Both the position numbers and the translations under genes were made by a program. From NCBI GenBank assembly GCA_024742735.1, contig JANSXV010000002.1, positions 124,001 through 188,000 on the forward strand: a stretch of 64,000 nt of DNA, written 5' to 3'. Positions within the stretch are counted from its first letter, which is position 1. Every line of letters starts with the position of its first letter. Shown piece by piece: positions 10,508 through 17,455 of the stretch. The notes beneath the pieces were generated by a model that was given only the letters and a program-made list of their open reading frames with translations, did no database searches and had not been told where the DNA came from. Source of the stretch: Alphaproteobacteria bacterium. GTDB taxonomy: Bacteria; Pseudomonadota; Alphaproteobacteria; Caulobacterales; Maricaulaceae.

Positions 10508-10583
<76 letters not shown>

Positions 10584-10687: not shown

Positions 10688-11854
10688 ATGCTGGCGATGT
10701 CGCTCTCCGTTCACGGCTTCATGCCTCATGGCATGTGCTATCTCTGGCGCCCGGAGATTCTCTGGCTGCATGTGGGCTCCGACGCGGTGATCGCGCTGGC
10801 CTACTTCTCGATCCCTGTAGCCATGACGATCTTTGCCCGCCGGCGGCCGGACCTCGCCTACCGGCCTGTGGTCGGATTGTTCATCGCCTTCATCCTGCTG
10901 TGCGGGCTCACGCACCTTGCCTCCATCTGGACGGTCTGGACGCCGGACTATTTTCTTGAAGGCGCGCTGAAAGCGCTGACCGCGTTGGCGTCGGTGGCCA
11001 CCGCGATCGCCCTCTGGCCGCTTCTGCCGCGTGCTCTGGCCCTGCCGTCGCGCGACCGGCTGGAGGCCGCCAACGCTCAGCTGCGAGACGAGAACACGCG
11101 GCGGGCCGAGGCCGAAGATCAGCTCAGGAAGCTCGCAAGCACGCTGGAGCGGCGGGTGACAGAGCGCACGACCGAGCTGGAGCGCGCGAACGCAGCCCTG
11201 CGCCAGTTCTCAAGCGCGGCGTCCCATGATCTTCGCGCGCCGGCCCGCCACATGGGCGTGTTCGCAGAACTTCTCGAACGCGACGAATCCGATCGCCTGT
11301 CCGACCAGGGCCGCGAGATGCTCGGCCGGATCCGGCTGTCCGCCAGCCGGATGCAGACGCTGATCGACGGGCTTCTGGAGTACGCCCTTCTGGTCAACAC
11401 GCCGCCTAGTCCGGAGACGATCGACCTGACCGGCATCGCCGAGCGCGCCGCAGACACGCATGCGCCATCCATCGAAGCGGCAGGGGCCGCGGTGACAGTG
11501 GCGCCGCTACCCGACGCGCGTGCGGATGCGGTCCTGATCGAGCGGGTGTTCGATAATCTCATCTCCAACGCGCTCAAGCATGCCGGACCCGGCCCGGTGA
11601 TCACGATCAGCGGGAGGAACTGCGCCGACGGCCGGGTCGAAATCCAGGTGACTGATGACGGACCGGGCATTCCCGCCGACCAGGCCGACGCGGCTTTCAC
11701 CATGCTCAACCGCCTGTCCGCCGAAGCCGAAGGAATCGGCGCGGGTCTGGCCTTCTGCCGGACCATCATCGAAAGCCATGGCGGGGCTATCTGGCTGGAT
11801 ACCAGCCATCAAGGCGGGGCGCGCTTCGTGTTTACGTTGCCCGCTTCGGACTGA
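10688..11854 (+). CDS. Histidine kinase with ethylene-receptor-like transmembrane sensor domain
   Basis: From the ATG at 10688 the product is 388 residues. Residues about 24-115 form three membrane helices that align without gaps to the ethylene-binding domain of plant ETR1 (offset 7): Asp32, Tyr39 (AYFSIP), Cys72 and His76 (LCGLTHLASIW) equal ETR1 Asp25, Tyr32 and copper ligands Cys65 and His69. A coiled coil (125-170) leads to HisKA with His180 in ASHDLRAPARH, phytochrome-like in style, then a HATPase domain (FDNLISNALKHAG, DDGPGIP). There is no GAF domain. A GTG at 10589 could extend the N-terminus by 33 residues. The receiver gene begins 12 bases downstream. Ligand is unproven; related cyanobacterial SynEtr1 binds ethylene. 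Confidence 0.88.
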   Translation: MLAMSLSVHGFMPHGMCYLWRPEILWLHVGSDAVIALAYFSIPVAMTIFARRRPDLAYRPVVGLFIAFILLCGLTHLASIWTVWTPDYFLEGALKALTALASVATAIALWPLLPRALALPSRDRLEAANAQLRDENTRRAEAEDQLRKLASTLERRVTERTTELERANAALRQFSSAASHDLRAPARHMGVFAELLERDESDRLSDQGREMLGRIRLSASRMQTLIDGLLEYALLVNTPPSPETIDLTGIAERAADTHAPSIEAAGAAVTVAPLPDARADAVLIERVFDNLISNALKHAGPGPVITISGRNCADGRVEIQVTDDGPGIPADQADAAFTMLNRLSAEAEGIGAGLAFCRTIIESHGGAIWLDTSHQGGARFVFTLPASD

Positions 11855-11866
11855 TAGCCTTCACTC

Positions 11867-12262
11867 ATGGCGTTCAACGACAGCATCCTCCTTGTCGAAG
11901 ACGATCCCGCTGACGTCTTCATGTATCGCAAGGCTCTCGAGCCTCACATGAACGGGGCGATTCATTGCGAGGGCCGGGCGGCCGGCGTATCAGCAAGCTT
12001 GCAGACAGTGCGGCCCGCCTTTGTCGTCACCGACCTGAAGCTGCCGGGCGCTGACGGGACCAGCGTCGTGCGCATGGTCCGGGACATCGGCGCCCTGCCG
12101 GTCATTGTATGCTCGACATCAGACGATCCCGCGGACGTGAAGCGGTCCTATGCGGCCGGCGCCAACGCCTATGTGCGCAAGCCGCGCGATCTGGACGGCT
12201 GGTCGGAGCTGGCGCGCTGCCTGGTCTGCTTCTGGGGCCAACTGAACCTGCAGCCGCAATGA
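11867..12262 (+). CDS. Single-domain response regulator (Rcp1-like), partner of the upstream kinase
   Basis: A 131-residue receiver domain with no output domain. It has the acidic pair in ILLVEDDPADV, the phospho-acceptor Asp in VVTDLKLPG, the switch Ser/Thr in CSTSDDP and the conserved Lys in YVRKPRD. The EDDPADVFMYRKAL beginning recalls the Rcp1 class that works with phytochrome-type kinases, matching the kinase style of its neighbour. The 12-base gap implies one operon and direct phosphotransfer. Its downstream partner, perhaps a phosphotransferase or motility protein, is not evident here. Confidence 0.9.
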   Translation: MAFNDSILLVEDDPADVFMYRKALEPHMNGAIHCEGRAAGVSASLQTVRPAFVVTDLKLPGADGTSVVRMVRDIGALPVIVCSTSDDPADVKRSYAAGANAYVRKPRDLDGWSELARCLVCFWGQLNLQPQ

Positions 12263-12369: not shown

Positions 12370-12690
12370 ATGACCTTTCCCCAGCTCGTCCTGACCTTCT
12401 TCTCCGACTACATCCTCAACCTGCTGATTTTCATTGTCTTCATCAGCGTGATCATGAGCTGGTTGATCGCGTTCAACGTCATTAACGCTCACAACCAGTT
12501 CGTCGCCATGGTCTGGCGCTTCACGACGGCGCTGACCGAGCCGATCCTGCGGCCGATCCGCAGCGTGTTGCCCAATCTGGGCGGGATCGACCTGTCGCCG
12601 TTGGTGCTTCTGCTGGCGATCTACTTCCTGCGCGCGGTCATAGACACCCAGCTGTGTCCGCTCGCCGGCCCCGTCCAGTATTGCTATTGA
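12370..12690 (+). CDS. YggT-family integral membrane protein
   Basis: A 106-residue protein with two hydrophobic segments (about 15-35 and 77-95) separated by the family block [27 protein letters not shown]. YggT proteins are small membrane proteins conserved across bacteria and linked to osmotic tolerance and to cell-division or cytochrome assembly functions; a precise role is not established. GGAG precedes the ATG. FolD follows 20 bases downstream and is likely co-transcribed. Confidence 0.93.
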
Positions 12691-12710
12691 GCCGCAATCC
12701 AGAGCCCGCC

Positions 12711-13640
12711 ATGAGCGAAATCCTCACGCCTCACGACTCCGGCGCCATGCTGATCGACGGCAAGGCCGGCGCAGCGGCGGTGGACGCCGCCGCGAGAGCT
12801 GCCGCCGCTGAGCTCGCCGGCGCTCTGGGCCGTCAGCCCGCGCTTGCGGTGGTGCTCGTCGGCGAGGATCCGGCCAGTCAGGTCTATGTGCGAAACAAGA
12901 TCCGCCGAACCGAGGCCGCCGGCATGCGCTCCATCGAGCATCGGCTCCCCGCGGAGACAACTGAGCACGATCTTCTGACACTGGTCGCAGCGTTGAACGC
13001 CGATGACGGCGTGGACGGTATTCTGGTGCAGCTGCCCCTGCCCGCCCATATCGACGCCCGGTTGGTCGTGGAAAGCATTGATCCGGCCAAGGACGTGGAC
13101 GGGCTGACGGCGCGCAGTGCAGGCGCGCTTGTTCAGGGCGCGCCGGGCCTTCGGCCTTGTACGCCGTCAGGCTGCGTCTGGCTGGCGCGCCAGGCCCTGG
13201 GCGACCTGACCGGTAAATCCGTCGTCGTGATCGGTCGCTCCATACTCGTTGGAAAGCCTGCAGCCCTGCTGTTTCTGGAGCAGAATTGCACCGTCACGCT
13301 CGCCCATTCGCGCACCGCCGATCTGGCCAAGGTCTGCGCGGGCGCCGATATCCTTGTCCCCGCCGTGGGCCGTCCGGAGATGGTGCGCGGCGACTGGATC
13401 AAGCCCGGCGCCACGGTGATCGACGTGGGCATCAATCGGGTCGAGGCGGACGGCAAGGCGCGCCTGGTCGGCGATGTCGCCTTTGATGAGGCGATCGAGA
13501 GCGCAGGTTTCATCACTCCGGTTCCCGGCGGGGTGGGGCCTATGACGATCGCCATGCTGCTGGTGAACACCTGCGCGGCGGCGGCCGCACGAGCCGGTCT
13601 CTCAACACCGAACGCCCTGTCTGACATCCTCGGCGGTTAA
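12711..13640 (+). CDS. folD: FolD: methylenetetrahydrofolate dehydrogenase / cyclohydrolase
   Basis: About 309 residues. This bifunctional enzyme oxidises 5,10-methylene-THF to methenyl-THF with NADP and hydrolyses it to 10-formyl-THF. Visible signatures are the catalytic Lys in QVYVRNK, the substrate block ILVQLPLP, the nucleotide-binding [13 protein letters not shown] (usually GRSNIVGKP; here SIL) and the C-terminal [17 protein letters not shown] 12711 is chosen over an upstream in-frame codon at 12654 that lies inside yggT. Confidence 0.96.
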
Positions 13641-13679
13641 CCCTCTGGAAATGATCAGGGCATAACCCTGTCCCAAGCA

Positions 13680-14117
13680 ATGAGGCCCGGCGATATGCAC
13701 CCCCTGCGCGTCCTTCACGTCGAAGATGACTTCGCTGACGCCATGCTGCTTCAGCATGCCCTTTGCGACGCGGGCGCCTATGATTTCGATCTTGAAGTGG
13801 TGCGGACCCTGCGTGACGCCCGCGCGAAGCTGTCCCGGAGCCGCTACGATCTGATCATTGCAGACCTGCGCTTGCCGGACTCAACGGATCCCAACGGCAC
13901 AGTGTCCCTGCTGGAACGGTGCTCCGCCGGCGCGCCGATCCTTGTTCTTACCGGGTCAGCGGGTGTCGACAGCGAGCGTATCGGCGCGTCGGTCACGGTG
14001 CTGGACAAGAATGCGTTCTTCCACAAGCGTGATGATCGAAAGAGCCGTGCGCTTCTGGCGCGCGTGCGCGAAGCCGTCGAGAGCAGCGGCGAAGGCGATG
14101 ACGCTTTGATCCTGTAA
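13680..14117 (+). CDS. Second single-domain response regulator
   Basis: A 145-residue receiver-only protein: the acidic pair is in VLHVEDDFADAMLLQHAL, the phospho-acceptor Asp in IIADLRLPD, the switch Thr in LVLTGSAG and the Lys in TVLDKNAFF. The N-terminus again resembles the Rcp1-like receivers, so it may compete for or extend phosphotransfer from the ethylene-receptor-like kinase 1.8 kb upstream, from which yggT and folD separate it. ATG 13680 lacks a clear ribosome site; ATG 13695, with GAGG before it, is an alternative start that removes five residues. Confidence 0.85.
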   Translation: MRPGDMHPLRVLHVEDDFADAMLLQHALCDAGAYDFDLEVVRTLRDARAKLSRSRYDLIIADLRLPDSTDPNGTVSLLERCSAGAPILVLTGSAGVDSERIGASVTVLDKNAFFHKRDDRKSRALLARVREAVESSGEGDDALIL

Positions 14118-14160
14118 AGCCGGTCTGGCCGCCGCGCCAGGTGAGCCTATCTGCCTTCCC

Positions 14161-14919
14161 ATGACAGATCTGCTTTCCTCTTTTCCCGCCGGGTATCGCG
14201 CCGTGGTGTTCGGCGCCACCGGCGCAATAGGCGGCGCCATGCTTCAGGCCCTGGCCGAGGATCCAAGGTGTGGCGCCCGGTTCGCGGCGTCACGGTCTGG
14301 ACGCGACGTCGCCGGCGCGCCCGGCCTGGCTTTCGACCTTGATGAAGACGGCAGCATTGACGCGGCCATGAAGGCCGCCTGCGCGGACGGGCCGGCGCAT
14401 CTCGTGGTCGCCGCAACGGGCGCGCTGCACTCGCAAGGGTCGCTGGAGCCTGAGAAGACCTGGCGGCATCTGGACGCTGGCCGGCTGGCTGATGCGTTCC
14501 GGGTCAATGCGATCCTGCCCGCCCTGATCGCGCGCGCCGCCCTGACGCACCTGGCGCGCGGCTCAGGGGAGGCGCCGGAGAAGGCCGTGTTTGCAGCCTT
14601 GTCCGCGCGCGTGGGCTCGATCTCCGACAATCGCCTGGGCGGCTGGCATGCCTACCGGGCCTCCAAGGCGGCCCTGAACCAGATCATCAGAACCTGCTCG
14701 ATCGAGCTGGCGCGCAAGGCCCCCGGCGCCCTGTGCATCGGGCTGCACCCCGGAACCGTGGACTCACCGCTCTCAGCGCCCTTTCAGCGCAACGTCCCGG
14801 AGGGCAAGCTGTTCACGCCGGACTATTCGGCGCGGCGGTTGCTGTCCGTGATCGACGGACTCGGCCCGGAACACTCCGGGCGTGTCTTCGACTGGGCGGG
14901 CGCCGAAGTGCCGGCCTGA
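14161..14919 (+). CDS. SDR-family NAD(P)-dependent oxidoreductase (C-factor-like)
   Basis: A 252-residue Rossmann-fold protein. It has the cofactor motif VVFGATGAIGGAML at the N-terminus, the VAATGALH strand, the catalytic Ser in FAALSARVGSI, and the YRASKAALN block containing the YxxxK pair. The pattern resembles short-chain dehydrogenases related to Myxococcus C-factor (CsgA) that are often annotated only as SDR oxidoreductase. The substrate is unknown. It starts 43 bases after the receiver gene on the same strand. Confidence 0.88.
   Translation: MTDLLSSFPAGYRAVVFGATGAIGGAMLQALAEDPRCGARFAASRSGRDVAGAPGLAFDLDEDGSIDAAMKAACADGPAHLVVAATGALHSQGSLEPEKTWRHLDAGRLADAFRVNAILPALIARAALTHLARGSGEAPEKAVFAALSARVGSISDNRLGGWHAYRASKAALNQIIRTCSIELARKAPGALCIGLHPGTVDSPLSAPFQRNVPEGKLFTPDYSARRLLSVIDGLGPEHSGRVFDWAGAEVPA

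Positions 14920-15418: not shown

Positions 15419-15422
<4 letters not shown>
15003..15422 (+). CDS. DUF1330 family protein
   Basis: A 139-residue protein with the ferredoxin-like dimeric alpha/beta-barrel fold typical of DUF1330: PIQMLNLIRLHERAQYADG, then GREAYAAYG and the later block DHAFIAAYPSAAAFLEMVTDPVYQ, followed by HRQAAVLDSRLI. The family has no firmly assigned reaction. A GGGAGCG ribosome site lies just before the ATG at 15003. The stop overlaps the convergent hybrid kinase stop by four bases. Confidence 0.88.

Positions 15423-17455
<2,033 letters not shown>

Follow-up and report, generated by a model that had tools for sequence, protein, structure and literature searches.

A bacterial histidine kinase with an ethylene-receptor-type copper domain and its stand-alone and phage-borne relatives

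Can a marine bacterium perceive ethylene through a small membrane kinase? The question is raised by an ORF in a 64,000-nucleotide stretch of alphaproteobacterial DNA, the whole of which is called the window here. The ORF (10688..11854, + strand) encodes a sensor histidine kinase of 388 aa with the order ETR1_N, long helix, HisKA and HATPase_c, in agreement with the main points of the original prediction.

The kinase, its gene neighbourhood and its sensor domain

The kinase starts with the ATG at 10688, and a second ATG at 10697 is a possible start. In the Pfam scan, ETR1_N covers residues 24–119 (E 1.2e-38, 131.7 bits versus a cut-off of 27). The histidine kinase core consists of the HisKA dimerisation domain (residues 170–233, 11195..11386, +; PF00512, E 2.2e-9) and the HATPase_c ATP-binding domain (residues 280–386, 11525..11845, +; PF02518, E 2.1e-24). 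The phospho-acceptor of HisKA is His180 (11225–11227, +), which is invariant in the 40 rows of alignment A4. Neither GAF nor PAS was matched in the scan of the 388-aa protein, so that the claimed absence of GAF holds, and with no GAF after the membrane domain the kinase falls outside the GAF-bearing ETR1/SynEtr1 type.

A tRNA-Ala gene lies upstream on the opposite strand (10508–10583, −). Downstream, the single-domain receiver RR1 (131 aa, 11867..12262, +; PF00072, E 1.5e-14), with Asp56 at the phospho-acceptor place, starts 12 nt past the kinase stop; the kinase thus has a co-encoded response regulator, a mark used for bacterial ethylene receptors. RR1 is followed by YggT (12370–12690, +), and the receiver-like RR2 lies beside folD (13680..14117, +; PF00072, 29.6 bits, below the cut-off of 30.2). 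The order YggT-folD-RR2 (12370–14919), often with an SDR gene, recurs in the family with or without a receptor kinase upstream; the names folD and SDR were assigned from ORFs rather than by family search. The window also encodes a hybrid kinase with GAF, HisKA, HATPase_c and receiver domains by Pfam (15419–17455, −).

Structure prediction, which the original prediction had proposed as a check, placed the ETR1_N residues in a confident three-helix membrane domain (10751..11041, +). AlphaFold2 gave helices 22–52, 59–84 and 88–118 with a mean pLDDT of 88.5 for the sensor domain, and 91.1 for the whole kinase, in which a long helix (122–199) runs into the kinase part. The first 20 residues were modelled with low confidence. 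The hydropathy peaks coincide with the three helices. The loop 51–59 is rich in arginine (four Arg), therefore by the positive-inside rule the N-terminus should face the periplasm. Asp32, Cys72, His76, Lys95 and Thr98 are located 7–12 residues from the outer helix ends, so that they would sit at roughly equal depth in the membrane's outer half. The search for a solved structure of the sensor domain gave no sequence match up to E 10, and none of the 89 fold matches reached E 0.001.

The domain was then compared with Arabidopsis ETR1, in which all nine residues checked fall on their numbers. Single-pair BLASTP aligned 96 residues at 41% identity and opened a single gap, three residues long (E 7e-20). 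A gapless alignment of residues 24–115 at an offset of seven had been claimed, and it fails in helix 3. At this offset 26 of 61 residues are identical for 24–84 and 4 of 31 for 85–115, and residues 88–115 fit best at an offset of four (10/28) after a three-residue gap before helix 3. The gapless alignment over helix 3 was therefore rejected, on the offset counts and on the BLASTP gap. The gap places Lys95 (10970..10972, +) on ETR1 Lys91 and Ser102 on Ser98.

The claimed equivalence of Asp32, Tyr39, Cys72 and His76 with ETR1 Asp25, Tyr32, Cys65 and His69 was borne out. All seven ethylene-binding positions of ETR1 are kept in the window kinase: Asp32 (10781..10783, +), Tyr39, Ile42, Pro43, Ile69, Cys72 (10901..10903, +) and His76 (10913..10915, +) correspond to Asp25, Tyr32, Ile35, Pro36, Ile62, Cys65 and His69, respectively, the last two of which are the copper ligands. 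D25 and Y32 presumably belong to the list of seven required residues. The available text of PMC11819568 gives seven as the number of residues required for ethylene binding in ETR1, and that of PMC6586836 names I35, P36, I62, C65 and H69 as essential. Exchange of Asp for Asn at the Asp25 place lowers the affinity about 100-fold, and the same Asp is salt-bridged to a conserved Lys, as stated in the accessible part of a review (PMC13012798). The window kinase has both members of this Asp-Lys pair, Asp32 and its likely salt-bridge partner Lys95.

Conservation, natural losses and the PHGxCxxW motif

The window genome has one ETR1_N match. The distribution of such matches is patchy: 28 of 137 family genomes (24 above the cut-off), 18 of 150 order genomes (17 above it), 28 of 385 class genomes and 29 of 398 phylum genomes (28 above it) have one, against 0/14 control genomes in each survey. 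Because only 28/137 family genomes have a match, the function is dispensable. Very weak ETR1_N matches of about 21–23 bits (L018, L156, L157, L158 and L169) occur in further family genomes and are possibly remnants or far relatives.

In 97 related rows, which are without L018 and include three duplicate pairs (L003/L020, L009/L022 and L016/L026), no row departs from Tyr39, Cys72 or His76. Ile is found at position 42 in 94 rows and at position 69 in 94, and Pro at position 43 in 90. The position of Asp32 is Asp in 78, Asn in 16, Glu in 2 and Gly in 1, and Lys95 is Lys in 78. The domain families of relatives were counted in alignment A2, whose 89 rows are the window and 88 of 98 loci; the window's own locus (L001), the duplicates L009, L016 and L020, the broken L018, L040 with unread bases, and the short or cut frames L089, L090, L095 and L098 were left out. 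Among the families listed (25 of 29), HisKA was matched in 71 of the 89, PAS_4 in 28, HWE_HK in 6 and HisKA_2 in 5. GAF is rare, since each of its three models matches 1/89, again among the families listed.

Natural losses of the copper site were found in three syntenic Oceanicaulis orthologues (G591, G593 and G600; L161:3724-4854, L162:3866-4996 and L163:4918-6030) with the order kinase-yggT-folD-RR2-SDR. Their sensor domain is degenerate: CGLTH has become AGLAH or AAIAH, Asp32 is His, Pro43 is Ala, Lys95 is lost, and there is no PHGxC motif. Two of these domains were scanned and still score 41.2 and 38.9 bits for ETR1_N. All three have an intact kinase frame and no RR1, so the kinase can persist without Cys72, Asp32, Pro43 and Lys95, that is, without the copper site. 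The original prediction had set loss of the Cys/His pair among close orthologues as its refuter. This was found in part: Cys72 is Ala in the three, but His76 is kept, and each genome has an intact receptor and receiver elsewhere. Because those species have a second intact copy and the window genome a single one, the claim is limited rather than refuted. The losses fit relaxed selection after the second receptor took over.

Directly before helix 1, residues 13–20 form a PHGMCYLW motif (10724..10747, +). His14, Cys17 and Trp20 are present in 97/97 related rows; one of the scan patterns used in locus finding covered the motif. The Pfam ETR1_N match begins after it, therefore loci found by Pfam are a fairer test of its conservation. 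Among 61 such rows, 51 have both His14/Cys17 and Cys72/His76, 2 have the copper pair only, 8 lack a complete pair of either kind, and there is no row with His14/Cys17 only. The association gave a Fisher value of 1.5e-8, or 6e-7 when the three degenerate Oceanicaulis orthologues count as a single row, and both values are rough because the rows are related and the alignment of the degenerate rows is uncertain. The 61 rows were counted by hand, without the re-fetched L161 and L194–L200, and the weak Pfam loci L018 and L156–L158, which had no profile match at this step, stayed uncounted. By these counts, the PHGxCxxW motif appears to track the copper ligands across relatives. The protein of the phage Molly keeps the copper pair without His14, which counts against the motif as a strict need. 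In the place of PHGxCxxW, ETR1 presumably has Cys4/Cys6. These cysteines form disulfides between the chains in a model described in the accessible part of PMC6586836. A literature search for 'PHGMC' returned a sole text match, on a restriction-modification topic.

Receivers, split receptors and phage-borne copies

The original prediction wired the kinase to Rcp1-like receivers in the plural, and this stands for the adjacent RR1 but not for RR2. A receiver directly follows the kinase in at least 32 of the 72 related loci in which 450 nt or more could be inspected; the count is a lower bound from six receiver queries at E 1e-4, and 80 loci were examined, of which 8 with too little DNA were dropped. 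RR1 is thus the likely cognate partner of the kinase. Since it has no output domain, it must act by protein contact. It is unlikely that RR2 or another receiver, and not RR1, accepts the phosphate. The conserved order kinase-(RR1)-yggT-folD-RR2 would agree with a role of RR2, as would two genomes (G601 and G636) that have an intact receptor and RR2 with no RR1 between kinase and yggT. However, in genomes without an ETR1_N match RR2 is kept beside folD at 13/13 inspected places, therefore it is not tied to the receptor, and its candidacy as a dedicated partner was weakened; the adjacency of RR1 and the common occurrence of a directly following receiver also stand against it. RR2 is probably a neighbour that is not dedicated to the window kinase.

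In some relatives the sensor domain and the kinase are separate proteins. In genus g7, all 8 genomes with a match over the cut-off have a stand-alone domain ORF directly followed by a separate histidine kinase (L099–L103, L170, L178 and L179). Five of the partner kinases were scanned with Pfam; all five have HisKA and HATPase_c, and none has a match to its N-terminal part. In L099 the stop of the domain and the start of the kinase overlap as ATGA; in some others the start codon of the kinase is unclear. Two other class-level genomes (L195 and L196) show the same arrangement, and the L196 kinase has a sub-threshold dCache_1 match (26.5 bits versus a cut-off of 45). The class sample also holds L194, a frame of 195 aa whose downstream kinase frame has no separate membrane part, which may be due to a frameshift, and a weak short ETR1_N frame of 159 aa (G153). 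In the phylum sample the shortest frame is 401 aa, apart from a 48-aa piece. When eight N-terminal parts were compared, those of L100 and L196 matched around the first membrane segment (E 4e-7), L195 matched L196 (5e-8), and L195 hardly matched L100 (0.07). In a tree with few columns and rough support, the g7 domains group with the L196 domain (97/81) and L195 is placed elsewhere. From this arrangement we infer that the stand-alone domain and the separate kinase make up a split receptor.

Just upstream of the stand-alone domain gene in L196 lies a SCO1/SenC gene (L196:3782-4348; PF02630, E 6.5e-41), which suggests copper supply. A copper-chaperone neighbourhood as a general feature was rejected, as one SCO1-like place (L124, which is the same as L196) came up when 200 partly overlapping loci were screened for motifs. 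The same screen gave one unverified P-type-ATPase-like frame, in L062.

The domain also occurs in phages. A tblastn search with it led to the Maribacter phages Molly and Colly in 8/8 matching records (Molly_1, L201:2935-3804, equal to MT732451.1 36990-37859; Colly_1, L202:1935-2804). Both are isolated marine phages, and the gene is located between tail-region genes and amidase/terminase genes. The 289-aa proteins score 60.9 and 59.9 bits for ETR1_N (cut-off 27). The Molly protein keeps CGIGH, has Asn for Asp and Ser for Pro, lacks PHG, and matched no PHROG family. Scans of IMG/VR, on whose assignment the viral nature of the other contigs rests, gave 15 contigs. Thirteen of them, in several sequence groups, carry a kinase-free domain protein, and two of these proteins (L213 and L214) are identical. 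The kinase-free proteins of L204–L209, L215–L217 and L220–L223 each have CxxxH at the copper-ligand place. L224 is Molly itself, and L225 has a kinase and may be host DNA. The Pfam cut-off was exceeded in 7/7 viral records searched, Molly included. Next to the domain gene, a tail family was confirmed in L204, as was a neck family in L205. In the tree, viral copies stand in several places, many of them without a resolved position. A role in a lysis cassette was considered because the Molly gene precedes an amidase gene, and was rejected as no lysis family was found among the chosen neighbours scanned in L204, L205, L209, L215, L216, L217, L220 and L221. A literature search, with subscription papers and preprints mostly outside its coverage, found no report of phage-borne ethylene receptors; judged by title, the papers returned deal with plants. 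The more novel leads are in the relatives, the split and phage forms.

It is quite possible, though we hold this tentatively, that the ethylene-type domain serves as a portable subunit for sensing Cu(I), and not just as the input end of a kinase. It would then be used in split receptors of Maricaulaceae and other alphaproteobacteria, where the separate kinase has a periplasmic domain of its own, and in phage copies, with PHGxCxxW acting in copper loading or in the site itself. If this is true of the phage copies, a phage could use them to bind copper or ethylene in the membrane of its host, or to report either.

Likely function and comparison with known receptors

The closest link to a measured function is AzoEtr1. 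We identified it as a 525-aa ORF starting with MFGGVEAF on plasmid ABSP7_p1 of A. brasilense Sp7, in agreement with the length and the cloning primer given in the accessible part of PMC11819568. The window domain is 54% identical to the first 130 residues of AzoEtr1 over 120 positions without a gap (single-pair BLASTP, 2e-47), and this match, like that to ETR1, far exceeds chance. In the same source, as far as it is accessible, residues 1–130 of AzoEtr1 bind 14C-ethylene in yeast, and disruption of the gene in the bacterium leaves little or no ethylene binding. The view of the window protein as a bacterial kinase with an ethylene-receptor-type copper domain is therefore supported by homology to a measured ethylene binder, together with the ETR1_N score and the seven residues. 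Every sequence mark of bacterial ethylene receptors that was examined is present in it. Judged from its sequence, it is most likely a receptor kinase of the AzoEtr1 kind that perceives ethylene in a Cu(I)-dependent way.

Such a receptor would be a dimer, and in each chain Cys72 and His76 of helix 2 would hold one Cu(I). This copper, placed in the membrane's outer half, would have Asp32 of helix 1 and Lys95 of helix 3 beside it, and ethylene would presumably be the ligand that binds it. The change may travel through helix 3 and the long helix 122–199 to the HisKA-HATPase core, where autophosphorylation of His180 would fall on ethylene binding. This sign is assumed by analogy with the AzoEtr1 authors, who predict that ethylene inhibits the kinase because disruption of AzoEtr1 gives constitutive ethylene responses (PMC11819568, available text). 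The phosphate would then pass to Asp56 of RR1 as the putative partner.

A doubtful but serious alternative accepts that the domain holds Cu(I) and takes copper itself, or another Cu(I) ligand such as CO, other alkenes or acetylene, or the redox state, as the signal, with ethylene merely a possible ligand. The copper ligands are indeed kept more widely than the affinity residue Asp32 (97/97 versus 78/97), many relatives come from marine-named records with no evident plant partner, and a copper-chaperone gene stands just upstream of the L196 domain. On the other hand, that chaperone is found at one place only among the 200 partly overlapping loci, and the window kinase keeps all seven positions including Asp32, while AzoEtr1 is reported to bind ethylene in the accessible part of PMC11819568. 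That the sensor domain is a structural or vestigial membrane anchor, which only places and dimerises the kinase, is very improbable. The Oceanicaulis orthologues, with their degenerate domain on an intact kinase, would fit an anchor, but each belongs to a species with a second, intact receptor, whereas the window protein keeps every ligand position in a genome without another copy.

Taken as an ethylene receptor kinase, the window protein is a compact marine member of its type close to a measured ethylene binder. Its natural variants, namely copper-Cys losses with the kinase kept, two-protein receptors and phage-borne copies, make the mechanism testable, and the sequences let one ask whether sea bacteria sense ethylene and whether phages use the domain.

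Bacterial receptors of the AzoEtr1/SynEtr1 kind are already in print, and the window kinase adds a member. Genes with a predicted domain of this type are present in many proteobacteria and cyanobacteria, according to the available text of a review (PMC7700396). Because of these reports, and because GAF is rare in the relatives, the novelty seen in the original prediction was overstated. AzoEtr1 and the window kinase share the N-terminal domain, the same seven residues and PHGxC followed by Trp. They also share, by the accessible account in PMC11819568, a histidine kinase domain and a single-domain receiver directly downstream. In contrast to the window kinase (388 aa, without PAS), AzoEtr1 (525 aa) has a PAS domain (PMC11819568, available text). 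The AzoEtr1 receiver gene overlaps the kinase stop, whereas RR1 starts past it, and RR1 is only distantly like that receiver, AzoRR-Etr1 (33 aligned residues, single-pair E 5e-6). The host of AzoEtr1 is a plant-associated soil bacterium, and the window host is marine. SynEtr1 (slr1212) of Synechocystis likewise joins an ethylene-binding domain to a histidine kinase, from which a phosphorelay leads to a response regulator (accessible parts of PMC11819568 and PMC7700396). Unlike the window kinase, it doubles as a light receptor and has a chromophore domain of the GAF type, and the two are set apart here by its description in the available text of PMC7700396. Arabidopsis ETR1 shares the Asp/Tyr/Ile/Pro/Ile/Cys/His positions and the Lys position with the window kinase. 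However, by the partial account at hand, ETR1 has a GAF domain and a fused receiver domain and signals mainly without histidine kinase activity, whereas the window protein combines the same positions with a kinase that has no GAF.
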